Origin: Sphingobium quisquiliarum P25
GTDB lineage: Bacteria; Pseudomonadota; Alphaproteobacteria; Sphingomonadales; Sphingomonadaceae
DNA length: 64,000 bases
Reading direction: 5' to 3'
Assembly: GCF_000445065.1 (NCBI RefSeq)
Contig: NZ_ATHO01000167.1
Coordinates: 1 to 64,000 of the forward strand
The notes below the pieces were generated by a model. The model ran no database searches. It was given only the letters and a program-made list of their open reading frames with translations, and was not told the origin of the DNA. Position numbers and translations under genes: made by a program. Positions 35,617-55,332 of the stretch are shown piece by piece; position 1 is the first letter of the stretch, and each line of letters begins with the position of its first letter.

Positions 35617-35659
35617 GCGCGGAGGTTGAAAAAGGCCGCGCATTATCCCATATGCGCTG

Positions 35660-35995
35660 GTGCCGGGTTCGCCCGGCTATGGTGATAAATCGTATCGTGC
35701 AATAGGCGCAGCGGACCCGGGGGCAGTACCCGGCGGCTCCACCACATGCCCCGCCTGGCGGGGTGTATGACGGGGCCGAACTAGGATCGACGTGTGTTGA
35801 AAAGCGATGCCTTCACCCGGCCTGAGTACGCCGTAAAAAGGTTCAAAACTCACAAGTGCCAACGATAACGAGGCTCTTGCTCTTGCTGCGTAATTGATGG
35901 CCTCACGGCCTGACATTACTCAAAGAGAACGCGGTTGAACCCACCGGGCAACAGAAGGGAATTCAGCGGCCGCCGGAGGGGCCGGGCAACAGAAC
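35660..35995 (+). ncRNA. ssrA: tmRNA, circularly permuted two-piece form
   Basis: The acceptor piece comes first and ends CGGCTCC-A-CCA at 35744, preceded by a T-arm-like hairpin CCGGG-7 nt-CCCGG. A linker of about 27 nt follows. The coding piece then starts at 35772 with GGGGCCG, which pairs over seven positions with CGGCTCC, followed by a conventional tmRNA-like 5' domain (AACTAGGATCGACG). The tag frame starts at GCC 35858 and ends TAA 35891-35893, encoding ANDNEALALAA. It rescues stalled ribosomes with SmpB. Outer ends are estimates; the coding-piece 3' end lies somewhere in 35940-36010. Confidence 0.9.
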
Positions 35996-36098: not shown

Positions 36099-36131
36099 CT
36101 CAATTACACTTTTATGACAGTTTGAAGAAAA
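36099..36131 (-). promoter_or_regulatory. Pho-box-like repeats, reverse orientation
   Basis: On the minus strand three 11-bp units follow each other: TTTTCTT-CAAA, CTGTCAT-AAAA, GTGTAAT-TGAG. The central heptamer is the exact PhoB half-site. The 15-mer TCTTCAAACTGTCAT is repeated exactly, inverted, at 36731-36745. The nearest downstream gene in this orientation is unclear, so its target is uncertain. A weaker plus-strand pair (ATGTCAT at 36198, GTGAAAT at 36209) precedes a TATATT at 36225. Confidence 0.4.
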
Positions 36132-36256
36132 ACTGATAAGTAATTGATATTGACCAAAAGAAAATGCTTTTCGCGTGTGCCTCACTCTCTTGCCCAGATG
36201 TCATCCAAGTGAAATAATCATGGCTATATTGGAAAGTTTTTTTCGGGAGAGGTGAG

Positions 36257-36640
36257 ATGATCAAGCTGATGGCGGTCCTGGGCTTCGCGGCCGCATCCTT
36301 GGCGCCGGTCGCCGCATCGGCCGCAGCCGGCGAGGTGGTGGTCGTCGGCGTGCAGGACGGTGGCCTTGCCGCAGCATCGCTCATGTCCCGCAATTATGAA
36401 AGCGCGGCGAAGCGGCTCGCGGCTCCGCGCCCGGACGAAGCCAATGATCCGGCGCGGCTCATCAACCTGGGCAACGCCTATGCGGGGCTGGGCCGCATGC
36501 ATGACGCGCAGGAGGCGTATCGTTCGGCGCGCTTCGCCCCGGACATGACGCTGTCGCTGGCCAATGGCGAGGAAGCGTCGTCGCGCGACATCGCCCGCCG
36601 CGCGCTGGGCAGGCTGGAAGCAAGCTACGCCATGCGCTGA
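36257..36640 (+). CDS. secreted TPR-like protein
   Basis: A 127-residue protein with a clear signal peptide (about residues 1-23, hydrophobic core ending ASAAAG). A tetratricopeptide-like pair of helices at about residues 60-95 follows (RLINLGNAYAGLGRMHDAQEAYRSA). GGAGAGGTGAG precedes the ATG. It is bounded by an intrinsic terminator (36667-36696). Periplasmic TPR proteins scaffold protein complexes; the partner here is unknown. It lies between inverted Pho-box-like sequences, which suggests phosphate control. Confidence 0.7.
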   Translation: MIKLMAVLGFAAASLAPVAASAAAGEVVVVGVQDGGLAAASLMSRNYESAAKRLAAPRPDEANDPARLINLGNAYAGLGRMHDAQEAYRSARFAPDMTLSLANGEEASSRDIARRALGRLEASYAMR

Positions 36641-36727: not shown

Positions 36728-36771
36728 GAGTCTTCAAACTGTCATTTTCACGTCTTCATTCCGTCACGGAA
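36728..36771 (+). promoter_or_regulatory. tandem Pho-box-like repeats upstream of the beta-helix lipoprotein
   Basis: Four consecutive 11-bp units in exact phase: GAGTCTT-CAAA (36728), CTGTCAT-TTTC (36739), ACGTCTT-CATT (36750), CCGTCAC-GGAA (36761). All share GTC at positions 3-5; the second is the exact PhoB half-site and the fourth matches six of seven. A further CTGTCAT at 36783 is in phase too. This is the arrangement of tandem Pho boxes bound by PhoB. Confidence 0.6.
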
Positions 36772-36899
36772 GCAAAACGTGCCTGTCATCTGCCACGCCT
36801 AGCTGCGGCTCCTGAGGGCGACAGGGGGCGTTGTCCGATTCGAGTTCCCCTTGCGCTCCGCACTGCAACTGACCGGAAAAAGCCGGAAGCGGAGACGAC

Positions 36900-38492
36900 A
36901 TGGCCAAGATCAACCATATTCAAACCATCCTGATGGCGGGCGTCGCCTGCGCGGCGCTGAGCGCCTGCGGAGCCGACGACATTGCCTCGCCCGGCGAAGG
37001 CGCGATCGTCATTCCGGCGCCCACGCCGACCCCGACGCCCGGCACGCCTACGCCGACACCGACTCCGGGATCGGTGACCCCGGCGGCCGAATGCCCGAAC
37101 ATCTCCGGCCCCGCGAAGCTGACGGCGCGCGGTATCATTTCGGACAAGCGCGGGAATAGCTGGCTGAACTGCGGCCTGCCGCTGCGCTTTACCGAAACCA
37201 CGACCCTGCCCAAGGCGGCGGGCGTTCTTTACTCGATGCCGGGTCGTGTCGATGTCGGCACCGACCAGGGCGCCGCGAGCACGAACAGCGTCGTCACCCT
37301 GAACATCGAACCGGGCGTCGTGCTTTTCGCATCGACGGGCAACACCTTCCTGGCGGTGAACCGCGGCAACAAGATCAACGCGGTCGGCACCCCGACCCAG
37401 CCGATCATCTTCACCAGCGAATCGAACGTTCTGGGCAATGTGGACGATCAGACCTCTGGCCAGTGGGGCGGCGTCGTCCTGCTCGGCCGTGCGAAGATAA
37501 CCGACTGTCTCGCGCCCGCCGCAGCCCCAGGCACCGACGCTTGCCAGCGCGATACGGAAGGCGCGAGCGGCGCCCTCTACGGCGGCACGAACGATGCCGA
37601 CAGTTCGGGCCGCATGAGCTATGTCCAGATCCGCTATTCGGGCTTCGTCCTCTCGGGCTCCAGCGAATTGCAGGGTCTCACCCCATCAGGCGTGGGCACC
37701 GGCACGCAGCTTGATCACATCCAGGTCCACAACAGCTCTGACGACGGCATCGAAATCTTCGGCGGCAGCGTCCACCCGCGTTATCTGGTGCTGACCGGCA
37801 ATGAAGATGACAATCTGGATACCGATGTCGGCTATCGCGGCACCGTTCAGTATCTGCTGAGCGTCCAGCGCGCAAACAACGACATCGGCGACAGCTTCCT
37901 TGAAACCGACTCCAACGGTGGCACGGAATCGAACAATGGCGAAGACGTGCTGCCGCGCCAGTATCTGAAGGTCGCCAACTTCACCTACATCAACCGTTCG
38001 ACCACGGGCTCCAACGGTTCCGCCATGCTGCTGCGCGGCGGTGCGGACCTGACGCTGGTCAACGGCCTGATCGTCAGCCCGAACCAGAGCTGCCTGCGCA
38101 TCGACGGCACGCCTACCGTGCGCGACGCCGATACGGCGCTGGAGGATGTAGGCAAGCCGCGCTACATCTCCGTGGCGATGCAGTGCTCCAGCACGCCCTA
38201 CAAGGGCAGCCGCGGCGTGACCGCCGCTGTCGTCCAGTCGATCTTCGAAGCCGGTCCGAACAGCACGATCAACTACACCCCGTCGCTGAGCAGCCTGTTC
38301 ATCAACGGCGCGACGGAAACGGCCCTGACCGCGACCGATCCCAAGACGATCGACCCGGCCTTCACCACGACCAACTATGTGGGCGCGGTCAAGGACAGCA
38401 CCGACACCTGGTATGCCGGTTGGACCTGCAACTCTGTCACGGCAAGCTTTGGCAGCGCCAGCGGCAACTGCACGGACATCCCGACCACCTGA
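36900..38492 (+). CDS. beta-helix surface lipoprotein, TonB-receptor partner
   Basis: A 530-residue protein with a lipoprotein signal peptide (lipobox LSAC, Cys at residue 23). A proline/threonine linker (PTPTPTPG repeats, about residues 39-58) follows, then a right-handed beta-helix domain. Motifs such as LNIEPGVVLFASTGNTFLAVNRGNKI, AVGTPTQPIIFTSE and GQWGGVVLLGRA are typical of a widespread family of surface proteins often encoded next to TonB-dependent receptors. The function of the family is unknown. The Shine-Dalgarno GGAG is 8 nt before ATG. A partial terminator (38513) separates it from the receptor, so it is probably made in excess. Confidence 0.75.
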   Translation: MAKINHIQTILMAGVACAALSACGADDIASPGEGAIVIPAPTPTPTPGTPTPTPTPGSVTPAAECPNISGPAKLTARGIISDKRGNSWLNCGLPLRFTETTTLPKAAGVLYSMPGRVDVGTDQGAASTNSVVTLNIEPGVVLFASTGNTFLAVNRGNKINAVGTPTQPIIFTSESNVLGNVDDQTSGQWGGVVLLGRAKITDCLAPAAAPGTDACQRDTEGASGALYGGTNDADSSGRMSYVQIRYSGFVLSGSSELQGLTPSGVGTGTQLDHIQVHNSSDDGIEIFGGSVHPRYLVLTGNEDDNLDTDVGYRGTVQYLLSVQRANNDIGDSFLETDSNGGTESNNGEDVLPRQYLKVANFTYINRSTTGSNGSAMLLRGGADLTLVNGLIVSPNQSCLRIDGTPTVRDADTALEDVGKPRYISVAMQCSSTPYKGSRGVTAAVVQSIFEAGPNSTINYTPSLSSLFINGATETALTATDPKTIDPAFTTTNYVGAVKDSTDTWYAGWTCNSVTASFGSASGNCTDIPTT

Positions 38493-43021: not shown

Positions 43022-43669
43022 TCATGCCCAGGGGCGTTCGCGATACCATTTGGTGATGATGTGCTTGACGCCGCTGCGCACTTTCATGCCGTGGTGCATG
43101 CTGGCGTCGTTGCATCGCCCGGCATCGGTGCGGTTGTTCCAGGCGAGCAGCTTTCCGGTTTCGGGCTGCACCGTCTTGCCGATCCTGACGAAGCGGGTCG
43201 CGCCGCCTGCCGCGGGCTGGTTGAGATAGACCATCAGCGTCCAGGTGCGGTTGCCCGCCACCGAACAATAGCGGGGATAGTCGGCCCCGGCCGGATCGAA
43301 GAAATCGGTATGCGCCTTGAATTCCTGACCCACGCCGTAGCGCTGGCCCTGAATCGGTTCGCCATAGGCGGGGTCGATTCCGGCAAAGGCGGCGAGGCGG
43401 GCGTCGATCTGCGCCACGAAGGGATCGGCCATGTCGAGGTCGCAGGTCTCGCTGGTGCGGAAAGCATTATCGCCATTGGCGTCGGCGATGGTGGAGGGGC
43501 GGCGCCTGTCCTCTATCCGGCCGATCAGGGCGGCGCATTCGTCCGGCGACAGGAACTGGCGCTGAATGAATAATGTGAGATCGCGGCTGGGCACGCGCTG
43601 AACACGGGGATGCGCCGCGATCCAGGCGGGATCGGCGTCAGGCGCGACGGGCGTTTGATCGGACAACAT
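43022..43669 (-). CDS. 2OG-Fe(II) oxygenase (prolyl 4-hydroxylase-like)
   Basis: 215 residues with the double-stranded beta-helix iron site: H120-x-D122 in AHTDFFDP, the distal histidine in MHHGMKV (H192 or H193), and the 2-oxoglutarate-binding basic residue in KHIITKWYRERPW (K202). Bacterial proteins of this type hydroxylate proline or other residues on proteins or small molecules; the substrate is unknown. It is divergent from gspC, and the Pho-box-like array (43761-43804) lies in the shared 177-nt gap. Confidence 0.88.
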   Translation of the reverse strand: MLSDQTPVAPDADPAWIAAHPRVQRVPSRDLTLFIQRQFLSPDECAALIGRIEDRRRPSTIADANGDNAFRTSETCDLDMADPFVAQIDARLAAFAGIDPAYGEPIQGQRYGVGQEFKAHTDFFDPAGADYPRYCSVAGNRTWTLMVYLNQPAAGGATRFVRIGKTVQPETGKLLAWNNRTDAGRCNDASMHHGMKVRSGVKHIITKWYRERPWA

Positions 43670-43760: not shown

Positions 43761-43804
43761 CTGTAATATTACAGTCACATAACTGTCATTCGACGGTCAA
43801 AACA
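43761..43804 (+). promoter_or_regulatory. tandem Pho boxes upstream of the type II secretion operon
   Basis: Four 11-bp units in perfect phase: CTGTAAT-ATTA (43761), CAGTCAC-ATAA (43772), CTGTCAT-TCGA (43783), CGGTCAA-AACA (43794). The two middle units form CAGTCAC-ATAA-CTGTCAT, very close to the PhoB consensus CTGTCAT-AWAW-CTGTCAY. The array ends 42 nt before the gspC ATG and is the strongest Pho-type site in the window. Confidence 0.75.
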
Positions 43805-43846: not shown

Positions 43847-44683
43847 ATGCGGGTGCCATTCGCCGACAATATTGGGGGTTGGGGCAGTCGCCTGAAACCC
43901 ATCAACTGGCTGGCGGTGGCGGAAAAGCTGCTGCTCGCCATCCTCGTCCTGCAATGCGTCCGGCTGATCTGGGCGGTGTTGACGCCGGTGGGCAGCTTTG
44001 GCCCCTGGGCCGGGCGGCAGGCGGAGTTTCCGAGCGTTCAGGCGCGGCAGGCGCTGTTTTCCAGTTTCGATCCGTTCAATCGCGGCGTTCCGGCGCAGGC
44101 GGCGGGCGGAGGCGTCGTCACCTCGCTGGCGCTGACGGTCTATGGCATCCGCCTGAACGAAGGGTCGGGCCTTGGTTCCGCCATCGTCGCCGGGCCGGAC
44201 GGCGTGCAGAACAGCTATGCGGTGGGCGATGAGATCATGCCCGGCGTGGTGCTGAAAGGCGTGGCGTTCGACCATATCACGATCGACCGGGGCGGGGCGG
44301 AGGAGCAGGTGTTCCTGGACCAGTCGCAGCCGCCGCCTGATGCGCCAGCGCCAGCCGGACCGGCCGGAGGCGGAGCCTCTCCTGCGGGGGTGGCGGGGAT
44401 CGACAATCCCACGGCGGACGGCTTGAAGCGTGACATCGGCTTTACCCCCCGGCTGCAAAATGGCCGCGTGACAGGGCTGATCCTGTCCGCCAAAGGGCCG
44501 GCATTCCAGAATGCCGGATTCCAGCCCGGCGACGTCATCACCCAGGTCGATGGGCAGCCGGTGGGTTCGGCCAGCGATCTTCAGGCGCTGCAAGGCAAGA
44601 TCATGCCGGGCGCGCGCGTTTCCCTCATGGTCGAACGGGGCGCTGGCCTCGCCACGATCAACCTGACCTTGCAAGGCCAATGA
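43847..44683 (+). CDS. gspC: type II secretion protein C with PDZ domain
   Basis: 278 residues: one N-terminal transmembrane helix (about 25-45), a homology region (residues 65-165: FDPFNRGV to AVGDEIMPGVVLKGV), a Pro/Ala/Gly linker, and a C-terminal PDZ domain (RVTGLILSAKGPAFQNAGFQPGDVITQVDGQPV). GspC links the inner-membrane platform to the secretin. A GGGGGA Shine-Dalgarno lies upstream. The stop overlaps the gspD start (ATGA, 44680). It is the first gene of the complete gsp operon, and its promoter region carries the tandem Pho-type boxes. Confidence 0.93.
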   Translation: MRVPFADNIGGWGSRLKPINWLAVAEKLLLAILVLQCVRLIWAVLTPVGSFGPWAGRQAEFPSVQARQALFSSFDPFNRGVPAQAAGGGVVTSLALTVYGIRLNEGSGLGSAIVAGPDGVQNSYAVGDEIMPGVVLKGVAFDHITIDRGGAEEQVFLDQSQPPPDAPAPAGPAGGGASPAGVAGIDNPTADGLKRDIGFTPRLQNGRVTGLILSAKGPAFQNAGFQPGDVITQVDGQPVGSASDLQALQGKIMPGARVSLMVERGAGLATINLTLQGQ

Positions 44684-46875
44684 CCAGAAAACTGCTTCTT
44701 TCCGCCGCCGCCGCCCTGGCGCTGGCTGCGCCGATCGCTTCGCCCGTCATGGCGCAGCAGACGCTGAACGTGCGCGACGCCGACATACGGGCCTTCATCC
44801 AGGACGCGGCGCGGGTGACGGGGCGCACCTTCATCATCGACAATCGCGTGCAGGGGAAGGTGTCGGTGGTGACGGACCGGCCGCTGTCACGATCGGAATA
44901 TTTCGAGATTTTCCTGTCCACCCTGCGCGCCAACGGCCTGGTCGCCGTGCCAGCGCCGGGCGGGGCCTACCGCATCCAGCCCGCCGACGGCGCGGCGGGT
45001 CAGCCGAGCGCGGTCGGGCGAGCGAGCAACCGCAACCAGTTCGTGACCGAAGTCTTCCGCCTGCGCTCCATCGATGCGGCGAGCGCGCTGGAAACGCTGC
45101 GCCCGCTGGTGAGCAAGGACGGGTCGGTGACGGCCAACCGCGCGGGCAACAGCGTGGTGGTGGCGGACTATGCCGACAATATCGGCCGCATCCGGCAGGT
45201 GATCGCGCGGATCGACCGCGACACGGCGGCGACGCAGACGGTGCTGTTGCGCAACGCCGGTGCGCGGGAGATCGCGACATCGCTCCAGGCGCTGGTGCAG
45301 AGCGGCAGCGGTGAGGGCGCGGCGCGGGCGGCGACCATCGTGCCGATCGACAGCAGCAATGCGGTGGCGATCCGGGGCGACGCCGGAACCGTCGCGCGGC
45401 TGGCGCAGATGGCGCGCGACCTTGACCGGCAGGCGGCGAGCGGGACGGAGATCCGCGTCTACTGGCTGGAACATGCCGATGCGGAAAAGCTGCTGCCCGT
45501 GCTGCAACAACTGGTCGGGCAATCCACCAGCCAGCCGGTGACGGCATCGACGCCCGCAGAGGGCAGCGGAGCGCCGCCGCCTGCTGCCGCGCCTGCCGTG
45601 GCGGTTTCCGGCGGCGGATCGGGCGGCAACGGCATTTCGACGCGCGGCCCTGCGATCGTGACCCGCTATGAAGGCGCGAACGCCATCATCGTCGCGGCGA
45701 ACAGCGACGTGCAGCGGATGCTGGGCGAAACGATCCGCCAGATCGACACGCGGCGCGAGCAGGTGCTGGTGGAGGCCATCATCGTCGAGATCAGCGACGC
45801 CGCCGCCAAGAAGCTGGGCGTGCAATTCCTGATCGGCAGCACCAAGACGGGCTTCGCCGCGACCAACTATTCCAATGCGCAGCCCAATCTGCTGACGCTG
45901 GCGGGGGCGGTCGGCGCCAATCAACTGGGTGAGCAGAAGACGGTCGTGGTGGCGCCGGATGGCACGCGCACGGAAACGACGACGCGGCAGAATGGCGACC
46001 TTGCCAACACCTTGCAGCAGGCGGCGGTCGACAGCCTGATGAACGCGACCGGCGGCTTTGGCGGCGTGGCGACGCGGCTGGGCAGCAATGGCATCTTCGG
46101 CGCGATCATCAATGCGGTGAAGTCGGATACGGACAGCAACATCCTGTCCACCCCGTCCGTCATGACGATGGACAATCAGAAGGCGTCGATCCTGGTCGGG
46201 CAGCAGGTGCCGATCACCACCGGCGAGGCGCTGAGCCAGAATTTCGACAATCAGTTCCGCACCGTCCAGCGGCAGGATGTCGGCATCAAGCTGGAGGTGA
46301 AGCCCCAGATCAACACGGGCGGCGCGATCAAGCTGTTCCTGCATCAGGAAGTGTCGAGCGTGGCTGGCCCCGTCAGCAACAACAACAGCGACCTCATCAT
46401 CAACAAGCGCGAAATCGAGACGATGGTGACGGTGGACGATGGCGAGATATTGGCGCTGGGCGGCCTGCTGGACGACAATGAGCGCAAGACGATCGAGCGC
46501 ATTCCGCTGCTGTCCGACATTCCGGGCATAGGCGAGCTGTTCAAGTCGCGCAGCAAGAGCCGGACCAAGACCAACCTGATGGTCTTCATCCGCCCGACGA
46601 TCCTGCGGTCGAAGGAGGATGCGCAAAGGCTGACGCAGCAGCGCTATGGCTATGTCCGCGACATGCAACTGGCGCGCAATCCCGAAGCCGAGCCCAGCAT
46701 CGATGAACTGGTGCGCGACTATATGGGCGCGACGCCGCCCGCGCCGATGCAGCCGGGCGACGCGGTGGTGCAGCCCGGCGCGGCCGCGCCGGGGCAGGTG
46801 ATCGAACCCACGATGCGGCAGTCGAGCGGCGTTGTGCGGCCTGTCGAGGTTCCGGCGAGCGGGGGGAGGCGGTGA
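44680..46875 (+). CDS. gspD: type II secretion secretin D
   Basis: A 731-residue outer-membrane secretin. A cleaved signal peptide ends SPVMAQQ (about residue 27). The N0 domain follows (LNVRDADIRAFIQDAARVTGRTFIID), then three KH-like N1-N3 repeats and a glycine/alanine linker. The multimeric secretin core contains VEAIIVEIS, SNILSTPSVMTMDNQKASILVGQQVPIT and DIPGIGELFKSRSKSRTKTNLMVFIRPTILR. The C-terminal tail is Pro/Ala-rich, and I see no pilotin-binding S-domain. Confidence 0.97.
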   Translation: MTRKLLLSAAAALALAAPIASPVMAQQTLNVRDADIRAFIQDAARVTGRTFIIDNRVQGKVSVVTDRPLSRSEYFEIFLSTLRANGLVAVPAPGGAYRIQPADGAAGQPSAVGRASNRNQFVTEVFRLRSIDAASALETLRPLVSKDGSVTANRAGNSVVVADYADNIGRIRQVIARIDRDTAATQTVLLRNAGAREIATSLQALVQSGSGEGAARAATIVPIDSSNAVAIRGDAGTVARLAQMARDLDRQAASGTEIRVYWLEHADAEKLLPVLQQLVGQSTSQPVTASTPAEGSGAPPPAAAPAVAVSGGGSGGNGISTRGPAIVTRYEGANAIIVAANSDVQRMLGETIRQIDTRREQVLVEAIIVEISDAAAKKLGVQFLIGSTKTGFAATNYSNAQPNLLTLAGAVGANQLGEQKTVVVAPDGTRTETTTRQNGDLANTLQQAAVDSLMNATGGFGGVATRLGSNGIFGAIINAVKSDTDSNILSTPSVMTMDNQKASILVGQQVPITTGEALSQNFDNQFRTVQRQDVGIKLEVKPQINTGGAIKLFLHQEVSSVAGPVSNNNSDLIINKREIETMVTVDDGEILALGGLLDDNERKTIERIPLLSDIPGIGELFKSRSKSRTKTNLMVFIRPTILRSKEDAQRLTQQRYGYVRDMQLARNPEAEPSIDELVRDYMGATPPAPMQPGDAVVQPGAAAPGQVIEPTMRQSSGVVRPVEVPASGGRR

Positions 46876-46890
46876 TGCGATTGCTTCTTG

Positions 46891-46987
46891 CCGTTCGCCC
46901 GGAGCGAAGTCGAAGGGCTCTCCCGGCCAGGGAGAGGGGCTTTCGCTCCGCGCAGCACAGGGCTTCGGCTTCGCTCAGCCCGAACGG
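46891..46987. repeat. REP-like inverted repeat between gspD and gspE
   Basis: Left arm 46891-46920 (CCGTTCGCCCGGAGCGAAG...) and right arm 46960-46987 (...CTCAGCCCGAACGG) are inverted relatives of the REP family, with the outer CCGTTCG/CGAACGG conserved. The element fills the gspD-gspE gap. The GGAGG used by gspE overlaps its right edge (46986-46990). Confidence 0.75.
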
Positions 46988-46995
46988 AGGCAGGC

Positions 46996-48534
46996 GTGAG
47001 TGAGCCGCTGACAGGAGATGTTCCGCCGCACGCCGCCCCCCGCGCGGTCGATATTCCCTATGTCTTCGCGCGCAAGCATGGGGTGGTCATGCTGCCTTCG
47101 GAGGGCGACCGGCTGACCATCGCCGTGCGCGAGGGGAGCGATCCGCGCGTGCTGCTGGAGGTGCGGCGGCATCTGGCGCGCAGCTTCGACGTGACGTTCG
47201 TCGATGCGCAGAAGTTCGACCGGCACCTGTCCGACCATTATGCGATGGAAGGGAGCGCCGCCGCCATGGCGGGGTCGCTGGACGTGGGCGCGGACGAGCT
47301 GGACATATTGGCCGCCGACATTCCCACCGCCGACGACCTGCTGGACAGCGCCGACGATGCGCCCGCCATCCGCCTGATCAACGGCATCATCGCCGAAGCG
47401 GCGCGGCAGGGCGTGTCGGACATCCACATCGAACCCTATGAGACGGGCCTGATCGTGCGGATGCGCGTCGACGGCGTGCTGCGCGAGACGCTGCGCATGC
47501 CGCCGCACGTCGCGCCGGTGGTGGTCAGCCGCATCAAGGTGATGGCGCGGCTGGACATTGCCGAGCGGCGCGTGCCGCAGGACGGGCGCATCGGCCTGAC
47601 GCTGGGCGGCAAGCTGCTGGACGTGCGCGTATCCACCTTGCCGAGCCGGGCGGGCGAGCGCGTGGTGCTGCGCATTCTCGACAAGGAGAATGCGGGCATG
47701 AACCTGGACCTGCTGGGCATGGCGGGCGCGGCGGACCGGATTTTCCGCGAGGGGTTGCAGGAGCCCAACGGCATCATCCTGGTCACAGGGCCGACCGGAT
47801 CGGGCAAGACGACGACGCTCTATGCGGGCCTGCGCACGCTGAATGACGGGTCGCGCAACATACTGACGGTCGAGGACCCGGTCGAATATGCGATCGAGGG
47901 GGTGGGCCAGACGCAGGTGAACGCCAAGGTCGGCCTGACCTTCGCGGCGGGGTTGCGCGCGATCCTGCGCCAGGACCCGGACGTGGTGATGGTCGGCGAA
48001 ATCCGCGACCGGGAAACGGCGGAGATCGCCGTTCAGGCGTCGCTGACGGGCCATCTGGTGCTGTCCACCGTCCACACCAATGACGCGGTGGGCGCGATCA
48101 CGCGGATGCGCGACATGCGGGTCGAACCCTTCCTGCTCGCTTCCACCCTGCGCGCGGTGATCGCGCAGCGGCTGGTGCGGCGGCTGTGCCAGAATTGCCG
48201 GGAGCCGGTGCAGGCGGACAAGTCGGCGAGCGCGCTGCTGGGCTTCGATCCGGGCACGATCATATACCGCGCGCGCGGATGCGACCAGTGCAACGGCACG
48301 GGTTACAAGGGCCGGATCGGCGTGTTCGAGGCGATCCGCGTGGACGACACGATCCGCCGCCTGATCAACGATGGCGGCGATGAATCGCTGATCGCCCGCC
48401 ACGCCTTCCTGAATGCGCCCAACCTTGGGTCCGCAGCCCGCGCGCTGGTGCGCGACGGGCAGACCACGGCGGAGGAAGCCATCCGCGTATCACGGCGCGA
48501 TGCGGCCGAGGTGGAAACCATCGGCGATGGCTGA
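46996..48534 (+). CDS. gspE: type II secretion ATPase E
   Basis: A 512-residue hexameric traffic ATPase that powers pseudopilus assembly. N-terminal platform-binding domain, then Walker A GPTGSGKTTTLY (about residue 265), the aspartate box, Walker B DPDVVMVGEIRDRETAEI, and the tetracysteine zinc motif C398-x2-C401 and C429-x2-C432. I place the start at GTG 46996 (MSEPLTGDV), because GGAGG lies 5 nt upstream. The frame extends further but only through the REP sequence. It overlaps gspF by 8 nt. Confidence 0.95.
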   Translation: MSEPLTGDVPPHAAPRAVDIPYVFARKHGVVMLPSEGDRLTIAVREGSDPRVLLEVRRHLARSFDVTFVDAQKFDRHLSDHYAMEGSAAAMAGSLDVGADELDILAADIPTADDLLDSADDAPAIRLINGIIAEAARQGVSDIHIEPYETGLIVRMRVDGVLRETLRMPPHVAPVVVSRIKVMARLDIAERRVPQDGRIGLTLGGKLLDVRVSTLPSRAGERVVLRILDKENAGMNLDLLGMAGAADRIFREGLQEPNGIILVTGPTGSGKTTTLYAGLRTLNDGSRNILTVEDPVEYAIEGVGQTQVNAKVGLTFAAGLRAILRQDPDVVMVGEIRDRETAEIAVQASLTGHLVLSTVHTNDAVGAITRMRDMRVEPFLLASTLRAVIAQRLVRRLCQNCREPVQADKSASALLGFDPGTIIYRARGCDQCNGTGYKGRIGVFEAIRVDDTIRRLINDGGDESLIARHAFLNAPNLGSAARALVRDGQTTAEEAIRVSRRDAAEVETIGDG

Positions 48535-49744
48535 ATATGATTATATCGCGATCGATCCTGCGGGGAAGGAGCGCAAGGGTTCGGTCAAGGCCGGGACGAT
48601 CGAGGATGCGCGCGCGCGGCTGGATGCGCGCAAGCTGTTCGTGGTGCAGCTGGAGGCAGGCGCGGCGGAGGTGGCGCGCAAGCGGGCCGGGCTGTCGCTG
48701 CGCGCGCCCCGGCTTTCGGCGAAGGAACTGACGCTATTCACCCGGCAGCTTGCCACGCTGATCCAGGTCAGCCCGCTGGAGGAGGCGCTGCGCACGATCG
48801 GGCGGCAGAGCGAGCAGGCGCATGTGCAGGCGATCGTGGGCAAGGTGCATTCCGGCGTGCTGGAGGGCCGCAGGCTGGCCGATGCGCTGGGCGCGGAGCC
48901 GAAAAGCTTCCCGCCGCTTTATCGCGCGATGATTTCGGCGGGCGAAAGTTCGGGTAGCCTGCCCACGATCATGGAGCGCCTGTCGAACCTGATGGAGCGG
49001 CAGGCGGTGATCCGGTCCAAGGTGCTGACCGCCATCGCCTATCCCAGCGTGCTGGCGGTGTTCGCCGTGTGCGTCGTCGCCGCGCTGATGATCTTCGTCG
49101 TGCCCAAGGTGGTGGAACAGTTCGATACGGTGGGGCAGGACCTGCCGCTGCTGACGCGGATGGTGATGGGGCTGTCAGCATTCCTCGCCAATTACTGGTG
49201 GCTGCTGGCGATTCTGACGGGGGTTGCCGCGCTGGGATTCTGGCGGGCGCTCAAGATCGAGGGCTTTCGCTATCGGTTCGACGCGACGCTGTTGCGCCTG
49301 CCGCTGCTGGGCCGCCTGATCCGCGACCTGCATGCGGCGCGGATGGCGCGGACGCTGTCCACCATGGTGGCGAGCCGCCTGCCGTTGATGGAGGGGCTGC
49401 TGCTCACCACGCAGACGGTGCACAACCGGGTGCTGCGGCAGGCGTCGGAGGAGATTGTCGAGGCCATTCGCGGCGGCGGCAGCCTGTCGGCGGCGCTGCG
49501 GCGGGCGGGCGTCTTTCCGCCGCTGCTGGTCTATCTGGCGGCGAGCGGGGAGAGCGCCGGGCGGCTGGACACGATGCTGGAGCGCGCGGCCGATTATCTG
49601 GAGCGGGAGTTCGACAGCTTCACCTCCGCCGCGCTGGCCATGCTGGAGCCGGTGATCATCATATTGATGGGCGGCATTGTGGCCGTCATCATCCTGTCTA
49701 TCCTGCTGCCCATCCTGCAATTGCAGAGCCTTACGGGGGCCTGA
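48527..49744 (+). CDS. gspF: type II secretion inner-membrane protein F
   Basis: A 405-residue platform protein with two cytoplasmic GspF domains and three transmembrane helices. Duplicated motifs are visible: FTRQLATLIQVSPLEEALRTI and later ARTLSTMVASRLPLMEGLLL, each followed by SAGESSGSLP or ASGESAGRLD. The start ATG 48527 (MAEYDYIAID) overlaps the gspE stop. It recruits GspE and GspL at the membrane. Confidence 0.96.
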   Translation: MAEYDYIAIDPAGKERKGSVKAGTIEDARARLDARKLFVVQLEAGAAEVARKRAGLSLRAPRLSAKELTLFTRQLATLIQVSPLEEALRTIGRQSEQAHVQAIVGKVHSGVLEGRRLADALGAEPKSFPPLYRAMISAGESSGSLPTIMERLSNLMERQAVIRSKVLTAIAYPSVLAVFAVCVVAALMIFVVPKVVEQFDTVGQDLPLLTRMVMGLSAFLANYWWLLAILTGVAALGFWRALKIEGFRYRFDATLLRLPLLGRLIRDLHAARMARTLSTMVASRLPLMEGLLLTTQTVHNRVLRQASEEIVEAIRGGGSLSAALRRAGVFPPLLVYLAASGESAGRLDTMLERAADYLEREFDSFTSAALAMLEPVIIILMGGIVAVIILSILLPILQLQSLTGA

Positions 49745-49753
49745 GGAGTGAAT

Positions 49754-50272
49754 ATGCGAGATTTCAAGACCGTTCGGGCCAAGCTTGCCGAAGCCCTCCG
49801 CTTCCTTGGGAAGAAGAGAAAGCCCTTCAAGCTCCGGGCGAACGGAGGTGGGCGTGGCGAAGAAGGATTTACGCTGGTCGAATTGATGGTGGTCATCGTC
49901 ATCATCGGCCTGCTGGCGACGATCGTGGCGATCAACGTCATTCCGGCGACGGACACGGCGCGGGTGGAAAAGGCGAAGGCGGACATCTCGACGATCGAGC
50001 AGGCGCTGGAGCAGTATCGGCTCGATAACCTCAGCTACCCCACGCAGACCGACGGGTTGCAGGCGCTGATCAGCCCGCCCGCTTCGCTGGCGCAGCCGCA
50101 GCGCTATCGCCGGGGCGGCTATATCAAGAAGCTGCCCGACGACCCGTGGGGCCGGGCCTATAATTATACCGTGCCCGGACGGAAGGGCGCGTTCGACATC
50201 AGTTCGCTGGGCGCGGACGGCCAGCCGGGCGGCGAGAATGAGAATGCCGACATCTTCTCCAGCGAGCTTTGA
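49754..50272 (+). CDS. gspG: type II secretion major pseudopilin G
   Basis: A 172-residue major pseudopilin. The prepilin cleavage site is G38|FTLVELMVVIVIIGLLATIVA, and the mature part has the GspG C-terminal calcium-loop region (LPDDPWGRAYNY, SSLGADGQPGGENENADI). The leader is unusually long (38 residues; 5-10 is common) and very basic, because a REP palindrome (49770-49846) is embedded in it. ATG 49754 has GGAG upstream; GTG 49748 is an alternative. No nearer in-frame start exists. Confidence 0.95.
   Translation: MRDFKTVRAKLAEALRFLGKKRKPFKLRANGGGRGEEGFTLVELMVVIVIIGLLATIVAINVIPATDTARVEKAKADISTIEQALEQYRLDNLSYPTQTDGLQALISPPASLAQPQRYRRGGYIKKLPDDPWGRAYNYTVPGRKGAFDISSLGADGQPGGENENADIFSSEL
49770..49846. 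repeat. REP-like palindrome inside the gspG leader
   Basis: Left arm CCGTTCGGGCCAAGCTTG... (49770 onward) and right arm ...CAAGCTCCGGGCGAACGG (ending about 49846) are inverted copies of the REP family, here translated as part of the gspG leader peptide. Confidence 0.7.
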
Positions 50273-50288
50273 GGCGGGGCTCCTTCCT

Positions 50289-50870
50289 ATGGCGCAGGGC
50301 CGGGCGGGGGTGGAGCGGGGAGCGAGACTCTGGGTCCCCGCCTTTGCGGGGACGCGCTGGGGTGCCGACGAGCGCGGCTTCAGGCTTTCGGGGCGTTCCG
50401 CCGAACACGGCTTCACGCTTTCGCGCCGTTCCGCCGAACACGGCTTCACGCTGGTCGAACTGATGGTCGTGCTGACGATCATCGGCTTCATTTCGGCTGC
50501 GGTCGTGCTGGCCATTCCCGATCCGCGCGGGCGGGTGATCGAGGATGCCGACCGCTTTGCCGCGCGCGTTGCCGCCGCGCGCGACGAAGCGGTCGTGACC
50601 TCGCGTCCCATGGGCGTTTGGGTTTCGGCATCGGGCTATGGGTTCCAGAGGCGTGAAGGGGCGCAGTGGGTGCCGGTCGAAGACAAGCCCTTCGTCACAT
50701 CCAACTGGAAGGCGGGAACGCGCGCGCTGGTGGGGAAGGACGGGCGGCAGCAGATCGGATTCGATGGAACGGGGCTGCCGACCGATCCCATGAAGGTCAC
50801 GCTGGCGCGGGAAGCGGAGCGCGTCGCGGTGACCGTCGACATGGCCGGGAAGGTGGCCGTGGGTGGTTAA
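50289..50870 (+). CDS. gspH: type II secretion pseudopilin H
   Basis: A minor pseudopilin: cleavage site G|FTLVELMVVLTIIGFISAAVVLAIP, then the GspH-type domain (DADRFAARVAAARDEAVVTSRPMGVWVSASGYGFQ). With the ATG at 50289 the leader is 52 residues and contains three tandem units ending GFRLS, GFTLS and GFTLV, of which only the last has the +5 glutamate. An upstream ATG at 50238, overlapping gspG, is also possible; neither has a strong Shine-Dalgarno. The 5' segment 50330-50462 is nearly identical to that of gspJ. Overlaps gspI by 8 nt if gspI uses its GTG. Confidence 0.88.
   Translation: MAQGRAGVERGARLWVPAFAGTRWGADERGFRLSGRSAEHGFTLSRRSAEHGFTLVELMVVLTIIGFISAAVVLAIPDPRGRVIEDADRFAARVAAARDEAVVTSRPMGVWVSASGYGFQRREGAQWVPVEDKPFVTSNWKAGTRALVGKDGRQQIGFDGTGLPTDPMKVTLAREAERVAVTVDMAGKVAVGG
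50330..50462 (+). repeat. 133-bp duplicated leader segment, copy 1 (gspH)
   Basis: Same length as 51308-51440 and identical except for five substitutions by my alignment, with a 90-bp fully identical core. It begins with a small palindrome (TCCCCGCC...GGGGA) and contains 33-bp (11-codon) tandem units encoding RSAEHGFTL. Confidence 0.9.
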
Positions 50871-51276
50871 GTTCAGCCTCATGAAGCATCCTGCTCCTGC
50901 CTGCGCGGGAAGATGGGGGAAGAAGGAGCAGGGCTTCACGCTGCTGGAGATGCTGGTCGCGCTGGCGGTGTTCAGCCTTGCCGCGCTGGCGCTGGTGCGG
51001 TTGCAGGGGGTGACGCTGCGCACGGCGGCGGACCTGGACAGCAAGGCGCTGGGGCAGATCGTCGCGCGCAACCTGATGGTGGAGGTGCAGACCGATCCCG
51101 CCCCGCCCTCGCTGGGGAAGGAAGAGGGCGAGGTGGAGAATGGCGGCCGCCGCTGGCGCTGGAGCCGCGAGGTCAAGGCGATGGACGACAAAAGGCTGTT
51201 GCAGGTCGACCTGACCGTGGATGGCCAGCCCGGTGCTTCGCCCGTGGTGCTGAGCTTTGTGCGGGTGGTGCAGTGA
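50863..51276 (+). CDS. gspI: type II secretion pseudopilin I
   Basis: A 137-residue minor pseudopilin with cleavage site G24|FTLLEMLVALAVFSLAALALVRLQ and the short GspI C-terminal domain ending VVLSFVRVVQ. The start is GTG 50863, overlapping the gspH stop, or ATG 50881. The leader contains the repeat-derived stretch HPAPACAGRWG. GspI is the core of the pseudopilus tip complex with J and K. Its stop overlaps the gspJ ATG. Confidence 0.92.
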   Translation: MVKFSLMKHPAPACAGRWGKKEQGFTLLEMLVALAVFSLAALALVRLQGVTLRTAADLDSKALGQIVARNLMVEVQTDPAPPSLGKEEGEVENGGRRWRWSREVKAMDDKRLLQVDLTVDGQPGASPVVLSFVRVVQ

Positions 51277-52037
51277 TGGATCGCCTTCCAAGTCGTGGCT
51301 CGTCGTCCTGGGTCCCCGCCTTCGAGGGGACGCGCTCGGGCGCCGACGAGCGCGGCTTCAGGCTTTCGGGGCGTTCCGCCGAACACGGCTTCACGCTTTC
51401 GCGCCGTTCCGCCGAACACGGCTTCACGCTGATCGAACTGCTGGTCGCGCTGATGATCTTCGCGATGCTGGCGGCGGCGGGCGTGCTGCTGCTGGGCAAC
51501 AGCGTTTCGGCGCAGGCGCAGATCAAGACGCGGCTGGACGACATGGCGGCGGTGCAGCGCGCCAGCGGGGCGCTGGCCGCGGACCTTGGCCAGGCGGTGC
51601 CGCGCATCAGCCGCACGGAGAGCGGGACGCTCGCGCCCGCATTCTGGTCGCACCGGCAGGGCGAGGAGATGCCGGTCATGCAGTTCGTGCGCGGCGGGTG
51701 GGACAATCTGGGCGACTTGCCGCGCCCTTCGATCCAGAAGGTCGAATATTGGGTGCGGCAGGGGCGGCTGGAGCGGCGCACCTATGCGCAGGTGGATGGC
51801 GCGGCGGGTGACGAGCCCGCGGCGCTGCTGGACCATGTCGATGACGTGACGCTGCGCTTTCGCGACGCCAAAGGGGAATGGCGCGGCGAGTGGACGCCCA
51901 CCCAGCCCGACCTGATGCCGCGCGCGGTGGAGATGACGATCGCGCGCACCGGGCAGCCGCCCGTCACCCTGCGTTTTCTGGTCGGGCCGGGCCCTGCGGA
52001 AAAGCCGGTGGTGGAAGGGGAGGCGGCCCTTGGCTGA
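51276..52037 (+). CDS. gspJ: type II secretion pseudopilin J
   Basis: A 253-residue minor pseudopilin. Cleavage site G49|FTLIELLVALMIFAMLAAAGVLLL, then a typical GspJ body (RLDDMAAVQRASGALAADLGQAVPRI, WVRQGRLERRTY). The leader is 49 residues and shares the 133-bp duplicated segment with gspH. The start ATG 51276 overlaps the gspI stop, which fixes it firmly. Confidence 0.93.
   Translation: MDRLPSRGSSSWVPAFEGTRSGADERGFRLSGRSAEHGFTLSRRSAEHGFTLIELLVALMIFAMLAAAGVLLLGNSVSAQAQIKTRLDDMAAVQRASGALAADLGQAVPRISRTESGTLAPAFWSHRQGEEMPVMQFVRGGWDNLGDLPRPSIQKVEYWVRQGRLERRTYAQVDGAAGDEPAALLDHVDDVTLRFRDAKGEWRGEWTPTQPDLMPRAVEMTIARTGQPPVTLRFLVGPGPAEKPVVEGEAALG
51308..51440 (+). repeat. 133-bp duplicated leader segment, copy 2 (gspJ)
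   Basis: Counterpart of 50330-50462, in the same reading frame relative to the prepilin cleavage site. The similarity ends abruptly a few codons after the cleavage site, at ELM (gspH) and ELL (gspJ), so the exchange is limited to the leader. Confidence 0.9.
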
Positions 52038-53019
52038 CGTCCCCAAGGCCAATGAACGGGGCGCGGCGCTGCTGACCGTCCTGCTGCTGGTCGCGGTGAT
52101 GGCGGTGGTCGCATCGACCGCGCTGGAGCGGCTGGCGCTGGCGACGCGGATGACCGGCAATGGCGGATCGGTCGATCAGGCGCGCGCCTTTGCCGAGGCG
52201 GGGACGGAGATGGCGCGGCTGAGGATCGGCGATCTGGTCGCGGCCAGTCCGGGCAAGACGACGCTGGCGGGGAACTGGATGGGCACGGCGCAGTCCATTC
52301 CGGTGCCCGGCGGCATGGCGACCGCGCGAGTCACCGATGCGGGCAACTGCTTCAACCTCAATAGCGTGGTGGCGGGCGAGAGCGAGGCGAAGCTGACGGT
52401 GCGGCCGATCGGCATCTCGCAATTCCAGGCGCTGCTGCAAGCGCTGGGCGTCGATGCGCGGCAGGCGCAGGTCGCGGCGGCGTCGCTGGGCGACTGGATC
52501 GACACGGACAGCGTGCCCCAGCCGGGCGGCGCGGAGGATGAAGTCTATGCGCAGGCGGCGCGTCCCTATCGCGCGGCCAACCGATTCATGGTGGACCCCA
52601 GCGAGCTGCGGGCCGTGGCCGGCGTGACGCCCGCCATCTACGCCATTGTCCGGCCGTGGGTGTGCGCGTTGCCGACGGCGGATCTTTCGCCGATCAACAT
52701 CAACACGCTGCTGCCGTCGCAGGCGCCCTTGTTCGCCATGCTGCTGCAAGGGCAGATCAGCGTCGCCCAGGCGCGCGAACTGCTGGCGCGGCGGCCCGCG
52801 GATGGCTACGGCAGCACGCACCAGTTCTGGGCGGGGCTGGCGAGCCAGGGGATCACGCCGCTGGAAGAGGCCGGGCAACAGGTCAAATTGACGACAGGAT
52901 TTTTCGGGGTGGAAGTGACGGTGGACGCCGGGGGAACAGAGGTGGTCGAGCAGGCGCTGATCGACGCGCGGGAAAGCCCGGCGAGGTTGATCCGCCGAAG
53001 CTGGGGGACCGGCGCATGA
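52030..53019 (+). CDS. gspK: type II secretion pseudopilin K
   Basis: A 329-residue tip pseudopilin. Short leader (ERG|AALLTVLLLVAVMAVVASTALERL) without the +5 glutamate, as is normal for GspK. The large alpha-domain contains DWIDTDSVPQPGGAED and the paired helix-hairpin region INTLLPSQAPLFAMLLQGQISVAQARELL. The start is TTG 52030, with GGGGAGG upstream, and overlaps gspJ by 8 nt. Unlike G, H, I and J its leader carries no repeat. Confidence 0.93.
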   Translation: MADVPKANERGAALLTVLLLVAVMAVVASTALERLALATRMTGNGGSVDQARAFAEAGTEMARLRIGDLVAASPGKTTLAGNWMGTAQSIPVPGGMATARVTDAGNCFNLNSVVAGESEAKLTVRPIGISQFQALLQALGVDARQAQVAAASLGDWIDTDSVPQPGGAEDEVYAQAARPYRAANRFMVDPSELRAVAGVTPAIYAIVRPWVCALPTADLSPININTLLPSQAPLFAMLLQGQISVAQARELLARRPADGYGSTHQFWAGLASQGITPLEEAGQQVKLTTGFFGVEVTVDAGGTEVVEQALIDARESPARLIRRSWGTGA

Positions 53020-54128
53020 CCGTGCGCGACGGGCTGATCGTCTCGCTGCCCGGACAGGGCGATCCGCTGTGGATGCGGGTCGCCGATGGCGTTGCCGTGC
53101 AGAGCGGGACCGGCGCGAACTGGCTGGCCGAATGCGGGCTGACCGCCCTTCCGGCTGGCACGATCGTCATGCTGGTCGCGCCCGCCGCGCTGGTGACGCT
53201 GCATTGGGCCAGCTATCCCGAACTGCCGCCACGGCAGGGCCGCGCGGCGGCGCGGCTGGCGGCGCTGGCGAGCGGGATCGTGCCTGCCGACCAGCTGTTC
53301 GCGGTTGCGGACCGGAATGAAGATCCGGCCCGCCCGCATATCATTGCGGTGGCGGCGCGCAGCGACATGCAGCATTGGCTGCTCTGGGCGCAGCATCATG
53401 GGCTGGACCCCGACATCATCGTGCCCGCGCCGCTGCTGCTGCCCGAACCCGCCGAAGGGTTCAGCCGTGGCGTGGCGGGCGGCGATCCGGTGCTGCGGGG
53501 CGTTGACATCGCCTTGCCCGCCGATGTGGCGATGCCGGAACTGATCGGGGACGCGCCCGTGCATGACGTGTCCGCCGCGCAGGTGACGGCGGCCGCGATC
53601 GCCGCGCTGGCCGATCCGCCGATCGACATGCGGCAGGGCGACTTCGCCAAGCGGGTGCGGCGGCCGGTCGACAAGCAGGCGCTGGGCCGCATCCTTCTGT
53701 GGAGCGGGCTGATCCTGCTCGCCAGCCTGTTGATCGCGCTGGTCAGCGTCGCGCGGGAGCATATGACGGCGAGCCGCGTCGATGCCGAAAGCCTGGCGCT
53801 CGCGCGGCAGGTAGTGCCGGGGACGGACGACCTTGCGCAGGCCGAGGCGGAGATGGACCGCAAGCTCGCCGAGCGGGGCGCGGGGGCCTATGCCTTCACC
53901 GCGCCGGTCGCTGGGCTTTTATCGGCGGTCCAGGCGGAGCCGGGCGTGTCGCTGACGGCGCTGTCGCGCGATGCTGACGGGATGATCCGCGCGACGCTGG
54001 CGGCGGCGAAGGCCGATGAGATCAACCGGGTGCTGCTGGCATTGCAGACAGCGGGCTTCACGATAACGGCCACCCCGTCCCAGGACCCTGGCGGGCGGAC
54101 GCTGGCGGACATTACGGTGCGATCATGA
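53016..54128 (+). CDS. gspL: type II secretion protein L
   Basis: 370 residues: a cytoplasmic actin-like domain that binds GspE (residues 1-230), one transmembrane helix (about 228-248, ILLWSGLILLASLLIALVSVA), and a periplasmic ferredoxin-like domain. It couples ATP hydrolysis to the platform. ATGA overlaps on both sides (gspK and gspM) fix the limits. Recognised by position and architecture; sequence similarity within GspL is always low. Confidence 0.9.
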   Translation: MTVRDGLIVSLPGQGDPLWMRVADGVAVQSGTGANWLAECGLTALPAGTIVMLVAPAALVTLHWASYPELPPRQGRAAARLAALASGIVPADQLFAVADRNEDPARPHIIAVAARSDMQHWLLWAQHHGLDPDIIVPAPLLLPEPAEGFSRGVAGGDPVLRGVDIALPADVAMPELIGDAPVHDVSAAQVTAAAIAALADPPIDMRQGDFAKRVRRPVDKQALGRILLWSGLILLASLLIALVSVAREHMTASRVDAESLALARQVVPGTDDLAQAEAEMDRKLAERGAGAYAFTAPVAGLLSAVQAEPGVSLTALSRDADGMIRATLAAAKADEINRVLLALQTAGFTITATPSQDPGGRTLADITVRS

Positions 54129-54613
54129 TGGAGCGGATGAAGGCGCTGTGGGGCGAAAGGTCGCCGCGCGAACAATGGATGCTGGGCATCATGTTCGCGC
54201 TGCTGGCGATCGTGATCCTGTGGCTGGGGGTGATGTGGCCGCTCCAGTCGGCGCAGCGGTCGGCGCGCGCCGCGCTGGCGGAGGCGACCGACCGGAACGC
54301 GAGCATCCGGGCGAAGGTTAAGCTGTTGAAATCGCTTCCTCGCACCGGCGCTACCGCTGCTTCGGCGGGCAGCATCGACCAGCTCATCGGCCAGTCGGCG
54401 GGCGAAGCGGGGCTGACGCTGGAACGCGCGCAGGCGCAGGGGGCGAACAGGATCGACATCGCCATGGCTTCGGTGCGGCCGGTCGCGCTCTTTTCCTGGC
54501 TGGCGGCGCTGGAGGCGCAGGGCATTCGGGTGGACACGATCACCGCCCGGCCTTCCGTCACGGCGGGCAGCCTGTCGGTGCAGGCGGTGCTGGTGCGGGG
54601 AGCGGGGCAATGA
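54125..54613 (+). CDS. gspM: type II secretion protein M
   Basis: A 162-residue bitopic inner-membrane protein: short cytoplasmic N-terminus containing the family-like SPREQWMLG, a transmembrane helix (about 20-40), then a coiled segment and a ferredoxin-like periplasmic domain. It partners GspL. Start and stop overlap the neighbours by four bases each. Confidence 0.92.
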   Translation: MMERMKALWGERSPREQWMLGIMFALLAIVILWLGVMWPLQSAQRSARAALAEATDRNASIRAKVKLLKSLPRTGATAASAGSIDQLIGQSAGEAGLTLERAQAQGANRIDIAMASVRPVALFSWLAALEAQGIRVDTITARPSVTAGSLSVQAVLVRGAGQ

Positions 54614-55332
54614 TGGGACTTCGCCTGTCCCGCCGCGCGCGGCTGGCGCTGATCGCGCTGTTCGCCTTCGGCTTCATCCTGTTCATGCCGATGCGGATCG
54701 CGATCGGCCTTGCCGGGCTGGAGAAAGTGGGCGTCACCGCGCGCGACGTGCGCGGCACGATATGGGGCGCGCGGATCGACCAGCTGATGCTGGGGACGAT
54801 GCCGATGGGGTCGGTGCGGGCGGCGCTTTCGCCCGTATCGCTGCTGATGGCGCGTGCGCGGTTCGATATTGAAAGACGTAGCGGCGCGGCCGATGACCTG
54901 CGCGGCGCGCTGACGGTCGGCTTTGGCCGGGCAGGGGTGGATGATGTTACCGGCGCGGTGCCGCTGGGGCGGACATTCGCGCCCCTGCCGGTCGGCAGCC
55001 TGGCGATGGAGGATGTGAGCGCCTATTTTACCGGCGACCAGTGCGGCCATGCCGAAGGGCGGGTGCGGGCGCAGATGGCCGGGCAATTCCCCGGCCTGAA
55101 CCTGAGCCAGGGACTGTCGGGCACGATCAGTTGCGACGGCGGCGCGCTGCTGATGCCGCTGGCGAGTCAGTCGGGCATGGAAAAGCTGACCCTGCGCATC
55201 TGGCGGTCGGGCCGCTATGTGGCCGAAATGCGGGTGGACACGGCCGACGCGACGCTGGCCGAAGCGCTGGGCAAGGTGGGCTTTGCCGGCATTGGCGGCG
55301 CGCGCGTGCTGAAGGTCGAAGGCACGTTGTGA
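54610..55332 (+). CDS. gspN: type II secretion protein N
   Basis: A 240-residue protein with one N-terminal membrane helix (LALIALFAFGFILFMPMRIAIGLAGL) and a periplasmic beta-rich body. The sequence GVTARDVRGTIWGARIDQLMLG and a CGHAEGRV...GTISCDGGAL disulfide-type pair match the GspN family. GspN is optional in type II systems. The start overlaps gspM; the stop overlaps the peptidase GTG. Confidence 0.88.
   Translation: MMGLRLSRRARLALIALFAFGFILFMPMRIAIGLAGLEKVGVTARDVRGTIWGARIDQLMLGTMPMGSVRAALSPVSLLMARARFDIERRSGAADDLRGALTVGFGRAGVDDVTGAVPLGRTFAPLPVGSLAMEDVSAYFTGDQCGHAEGRVRAQMAGQFPGLNLSQGLSGTISCDGGALLMPLASQSGMEKLTLRIWRSGRYVAEMRVDTADATLAEALGKVGFAGIGGARVLKVEGTL

Follow-up and report, generated by a model that had tools for sequence, protein, structure and literature searches.

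The Hxc type II secretion system of Pseudomonas aeruginosa secretes the alkaline phosphatase LapA under phosphate limitation, and in Escherichia coli PhoB acts as an activator in place of the -35 box. The closest described counterpart of the locus analyzed here is cc0170–cc0184 of Caulobacter crescentus, which according to its published description runs in the order elpS, TonB receptor gene and gsp genes from gspC onwards, with cc0170 and the gsp genes arranged in tandem in Sphingomonas alaskensis as well (PMC2996285). In published accounts, elpS is made under phosphate starvation and a 47-gene PhoB regulon, under direct or indirect control, includes the Caulobacter type II system (PMC2996285, PMC11208175), and the principle that PhoB can govern a type II system is therefore already known.

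In the expression data given for Caulobacter, gspE and gspL are already expressed when the medium is rich and show a 1.7-fold rise when it is poor, with an equal level of mGFP-GspL protein in the two media and constitutive expression of the TonB receptor gene cc0171 in both (PMC2996285). Judged from these data, the effect of phosphate on the type II machine may be modest, and the TonB receptor may lie outside PhoB control. By the same description, Caulobacter ElpS gets to the cell surface independently of the type II system, which is needed only for its release, apparently via a secreted protease (PMC2996285); the first-pass annotation of the DNA studied here, which had the Caulobacter system exporting ElpS, needs correcting on this point.

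Organization of the gsp locus

The window, a 64,000-nucleotide stretch of the genome of Sphingobium quisquiliarum P25, harbors a complete gspC–N set and a prepilin peptidase gene, with lipoprotein and TonB receptor genes upstream of gspC:

36900–38492 (+): ElpS-like lipoprotein, LSAC lipobox by eye, predicted beta-helix
38585–41275 (+): TonB-dependent receptor, adjoining the ElpS-like gene
43847–44683 (+): gspC (PF11356)
44680–46875 (+): gspD, secretin
46888–48534 (+): gspE, ATPase; start codon uncertain
48413–49744 (+): gspF; longest ORF, start codon uncertain
49748–50272 (+): gspG
50238–50870 (+): gspH; longest ORF
50863–51276 (+): gspI
50913–52037 (+): gspJ; longest ORF, true start probably 51276 or later
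52030–53019 (+): gspK
52656–54128 (+): gspL; longest ORF, true start probably near 53016
54125–54613 (+): gspM
54610–55332 (+): gspN
55041–56081 (+): gspO, prepilin peptidase; longest ORF, first ATG 55353

The earlier naming of the downstream genes as gspC–N followed by gspO was right. The lipoprotein is termed ElpS-like by analogy, on the basis of gene order, its lipobox and the published conservation of that order in S. alaskensis. Unlike the Caulobacter locus, the window has two genes between the receptor gene and gspC, one encoding a CYTH-CHAD protein and the other, divergent, an oxygenase, and gspO follows gspN on the same strand, whereas the Caulobacter gspO is described as lying opposite (PMC2996285).

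A four-slot array ahead of gspC

The intergenic region before gspC contains a run of directly repeated heptamers followed by a putative -10 element:

43761–43800 (+): array of four Pho-box slots repeating every 11 bp; putative PhoB site for the gsp operon
43761 (+): slot 1 heptamer, CTGTAAT
43772 (+): slot 2 heptamer, CAGTCAC
43783 (+): slot 3 heptamer, CTGTCAT
43794 (+): slot 4 heptamer, CGGTCAA
43810–43815 (+): -10-like element CTAGCA, 9 nt after slot 4; presumed -10 role

The coordinates, strand and exact 11-bp spacing given for these heptamers in the first-pass annotation are accurate, as is the 42-nt gap to gspC (the final 11-mer stops at 43804, and the ATG is at 43847). It had called them a tandem double Pho box; the repeats are real, but "four-slot array in phase with a -10 element" describes the site better.

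The array occupies the -35 position relative to the putative -10 element. Because CTAGCA begins at position 50 counted from slot 1, its TA falls at positions 51–52, as it does in pstS promoters from 27 other genomes of the genus, where T is found at position 51 in 25 and A at position 52 in 26. Among 84 distinct gspC arrays, 35 have CTA starting at position 50 and 25 have it starting at position 39, two positions that are one 11-bp step apart, as if some gspC promoters had four slots and others three. By its layout, the gspC promoter geometry is that expected of an activator replacing the -35 box. The site shares with the pstS promoters of its own genome and genus the 11-bp slots, the distance from slot 1 to the TA of the -10 element and a weak slot 4, and differs from them in slot 2, which is of the NTGCAAT/NTGAAAC type at pstS and mostly of the NNGTCAC type at gspC in the genus.

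Comparison with pstS and other Pho-type sites

The genome encodes PhoB (TIGR02154, 330 bits against an NCBIfam cut-off of 296) near pstS, in a cluster that reads by eye as phoR-pst-phoU-phoB (pstC, pstA, pstB, phoU). A heptamer matrix was trained on the three-slot arrays upstream of pstS in 27 other genomes of the genus, with all gspC data excluded; pstS-type matches were present in 60 of the 61 genomes searched in the genus, and of 30 pstS loci taken, the organism's own and two with too little upstream sequence were dropped. Background scores come from a 400-kb sample of the organism's genome: 20 hand-picked 20-kb stretches, read on both strands and giving 798,880 positions in all.

Scored over three slots, the gspC site reaches 25.4 bits against a background maximum of 15.4, and the genome's own pstS site, left out of training, reaches 29.6. 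Over four slots the gspC site gives 23.1 bits against a background maximum of 11.2; over two slots it gives 15.0 bits and is not outstanding, being equaled or exceeded at five background positions. Slots 2 (4.3 bits) and 4 (-2.3 bits) are both off-consensus, and the weak slot 4 is degenerate at pstS as well. The 11-bp direct heptamer repeats thus match the organism's own Pho sites, and in the weight-matrix comparison that the first-pass annotation had proposed, the gspC site ranks with pstS.

Pattern searches covered the whole assembly (4,165,516 bases, or 4.17 Mb, in 181 contigs). The gspC site is the sole match without mismatch to a three-heptamer IUPAC pattern, which is weak evidence by itself because the pattern was written around this site. 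Allowing up to two mismatches, the same loose pattern gave 49 matches in the assembly against 63 for a reversed control, no excess, and therefore only the rank at zero mismatches is used, and lightly. A loose two-heptamer pattern (43 matches against 22 for the reversed control) was discarded for ranking as too noisy. Another pattern, scanned across the genome, gave 24 matches against 7 for the reversed control; the gspC site matches it with one mismatch, and of the four sites without mismatch, one precedes pstS (C55), one precedes the ElpS-like gene, and the other two lie at C7 and C71. With the pstS-trained matrix the C71 site scores 29.2 bits, and the C7 site, which stands before a TonB receptor gene (by eye) followed by a type I phosphodiesterase gene, scores 15.5 bits, barely over the background maximum of 15.4.

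Conservation of the array in relatives

Loss of the repeats from close relatives that keep the operon had been named at the outset as an outcome that would speak against a PhoB site. The repeats are kept, at all 30 gspC loci examined in the genus and at 75 of 79 testable loci from named relatives. The genus loci are the 30 best-scoring ones, own genome included, among 57 of 61 genomes with GspC, and were scored with a hand-made matrix; the best three slots start 76–92 nt before the gspC start in 29 of them and 232 nt before it in one. When 20 chosen gspC regions were scored with the pstS-trained matrix, 19 had an array equaled in none of 300 dinucleotide shuffles and the twentieth one equaled in 4 of 300. 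The named relatives represent the best 80 of 537 GspD loci, at which the array was counted as kept when reached in at most 2 of 200 shuffles; one piece of coding sequence per locus served as a control and scored at most 2.8 bits. These loci include members of Sphingobium, Sphingopyxis, Sphingorhabdus, Sphingomonas and Sphingomicrobium, the closest among these best 80 being mostly Sphingobium, and the conservation counts are not independent, since the named loci are partly near-duplicates and some may repeat genus genomes.

The spacing itself is conserved. In a set of 110 gspC loci, made up of the 80 named ones and the 30 of the genus (the organism's own among them), 108 were scorable; repeats at 11-bp spacing reach 12 bits in 97 of these and fall below it in 11, and spacings of 8, 9, 10, 12, 13 and 14 bp reach 12 bits in 0 to 3 of the 108. 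The four named loci that failed are L314, which is marginal (4/200 shuffles) with the array still visible, and L299, L303 and L323, where no elpS was detected upstream (L303 with only ~5 kb of upstream sequence).

A family-wide search found a gspC match in 66 of 149 genomes. Among the 30 best-scoring loci, the array was present at 14 of 16 beside elpS vs 5 of 14 others (Fisher p = 0.007, uncorrected for kinship, with elpS adjacency typed by hand and with two of the five nonadjacent positives, L136 and L138, looking dubious); gsp operons away from elpS thus lack the array in 9 of 14 cases among these best 30 loci. The link between array and elpS is weak at the named loci, where no elpS was detected upstream at 21 of 79 and the array was kept at 18 of these 21. 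Class-wide, a gspC match was found in 13 of 289 genomes; 14 loci were fetched and 10 scored, the others being the window's own locus and three weak ones below the cut-off (L341–L343). None of the nine gspC loci from outside the family scored above 8.2 bits, and no array was found at the one family locus of this survey, L333; because the loci are few and very divergent, these scores neither show nor exclude an array outside the family.

A second array ahead of the ElpS-like gene

Upstream of the lipoprotein gene, 7 kb before the gspC array, lies a further run of heptamers:

36739–36789 (+): second Pho-box array, before the ElpS-like gene; five slots spaced 11 bp apart
36799–36804 (+): -10-like element CTAGCT, 9 nt downstream of the fifth slot

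Its slots read CTGTCAT, ACGTCTT, CCGTCAC, a degenerate GCAAAAC and CTGTCAT, and the first three score 16.0 bits with the pstS-trained matrix, barely over the background maximum of 15.4. In 19 regions from relatives, the array upstream of elpS was equaled in 0 of 300 shuffles in 13 and in at most 2 of 300 in 16; the three failures are L211 (5/300), L216 (4/300) and L221 (35/300).

At the thresholds used, the ElpS-like protein has no Pfam, NCBIfam or PDB-sequence match. It is modeled as a right-handed beta-helix (mean pLDDT 76.7), for which Foldseek returned no match with E below 0.001; VIA-align gave a best Z of 22.2 (284 residues aligned at rmsd 3.5), a score at which tailspikes, epimerases and lyases tie. 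Many unrelated proteins have this fold, and we therefore draw no function from it.

Regulatory model and alternative readings

The proposal that the gsp operon is under PhoB/phosphate control, first made in the initial annotation, is strongly supported at the sequence level, because the ranking with pstS and the survey of relatives both came out in its favor. We consider it highly likely that the 40-bp array is a PhoB site activating gspC–N, and probably gspO, that elpS and pstS are activated likewise, and that the cluster forms a phosphate-scavenging surface and secretion module. Upon phosphate limitation, PhoR would phosphorylate PhoB, whose molecules would bind the 11-bp repeats in head-to-tail order and bring RNA polymerase to the CTAGCA -10 element, replacing the -35 box; gspC–N, and probably gspO too, would be switched on, and the second PhoB array would switch on the ElpS-like lipoprotein, the cluster then working as such a module. 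PhoB binding, activation and co-transcription of the whole operon through to gspO are predictions of this model, and the TonB receptor gene may share the elpS promoter. The cargo, previously given as phosphatases or lipoproteins, is suggested by the neighboring ElpS-like gene with an array of its own, and ElpS is a candidate partner of the type II system.

The array could conceivably be read by a different response regulator of the OmpR/PhoB family, with the operon answering another signal, given that OmpR-family regulators often bind direct repeats ~10–11 bp apart and that the gspC array departs from pstS in slot 2 (CAGTCAC vs NTGCAAT/NTGAAAC) and slot 4. We regard this as unlikely: a matrix built from pstS sites only lifts the gspC site far over background at 25.4 bits, the spacing and the distance to the -10 element are common to pstS and gspC, and the genome's other sites without mismatch include the phosphodiesterase locus and the ElpS-like gene. 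Less probable still is an operator for a dimeric repressor in the 14-bp palindrome CTGTAATATTACAG (43761–43774), with the other heptamers incidental. The palindrome has no mismatch and precedes the -10 element, but it occurs in only one of 84 distinct arrays, the window's own, and the direct repeats are what is kept; we rejected it as an operator, as it looks incidental.

The location of the site between two divergent genes leaves room for a chance run of heptamers or for a site serving the divergent 2OG-Fe(II) oxygenase gene (43022–43669, minus strand), either of which we judge very improbable. The sampled background positions never reach the score of the gspC site (15.4 vs 25.4 bits), the repeats and the -10 element both face gspC, and in 14 of the 16 family regions from outside the genus set no oxygenase gene was detected beside gspC, with 13 of these 14 keeping the array at 0/300 shuffles.

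Since a pstS-type switch stands before the operon and is kept in nearly all relatives checked, we favor PhoB control, and the type II exporter very probably belongs to the cell's means of scavenging phosphate when it is scarce. Whether the main type II system of the Sphingomonadaceae is more broadly a machine devoted to acquiring phosphate, as opposed to an all-purpose exporter, with the lipoprotein gene, the gsp operon and perhaps the TonB receptor gene forming one PhoB module of fixed three- or four-slot geometry, we put at even chances. Such a system would resemble Hxc of P. aeruginosa in having phosphate starvation as its dedicated purpose, Hxc differing in that it belongs to another bacterial class, has another cargo and is not known to have an ElpS or TonB receptor partner.

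To this the present analysis adds the anatomy of the promoter, a geometry in common with pstS and the conservation across the Sphingomonadaceae; in a limited literature search we found no report that PhoB controls a type II system in sphingomonads, nor any of its family-wide conservation or of the pstS-shared geometry. A result from one species, Caulobacter, is thereby extended to a family-wide regulatory prediction for sphingomonads, which offers a checkable rule for spotting phosphate-linked secretion systems and points to low phosphate as a condition for seeking type II cargo in these bacteria.

Neighboring genes and further Pho-type sites

Gene order was read in 20 regions, 16 of which had been chosen for proximity of elpS and gspC; lipoprotein, TonB receptor and gspC come in that order in 19, and L230 is without both upstream genes. 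Between receptor and gspC, 14 of the 16 family regions yielded no CYTH-CHAD gene and no oxygenase gene, the oxygenase gene alone occurs there in L211 and L225, and both genes occur there in the window and in three of four genus regions. The fourth genus region, L230, has both genes, but neither a receptor gene nor elpS was detected within the part that was read. The CYTH-CHAD gene (PF01928, PF05235; 41404–42846 in the window) is thus found upstream of gspC in all four genus regions and was undetected in the 16 other family regions read. The CHAD domain has been linked to polyphosphate binding.

Further upstream, the window contains an alphaproteobacterial (permuted) tmRNA gene at 35622–35965 (+) (Rfam RF01849, 225 bits) and a gene for a small TPR-like protein at 36257–36640, with two more Pho-box-like pairs between them, at 36103–36120 (-) and 36198–36215 (+). 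One of the pairs faces the TPR gene and is followed by CTA; the pair on the opposite strand faces the 3' side of the tmRNA, where no gene or -10 element was noticed. Both pairs are kept in all three genus relatives read.

Elsewhere in the genome, the Pho-type array at C7 (L063:7145 onward; G000:C7:45144) lies ahead of the TonB receptor gene (by eye), with a type I phosphodiesterase/nucleotide pyrophosphatase gene (PF01663) after the receptor and a metallophosphoesterase gene (PF00149) just upstream, and from its gene content this looks like a PhoB-controlled organic-phosphate locus. The C71 array (L064:6884–6912, minus strand; G000:C71:36883–36911), at 29.2 bits among the strongest Pho-type arrays seen in the genome, faces short overlapping ORFs in different frames that read by eye as the start of a receiver and the end of a histidine kinase, as if a two-component gene had decayed there.
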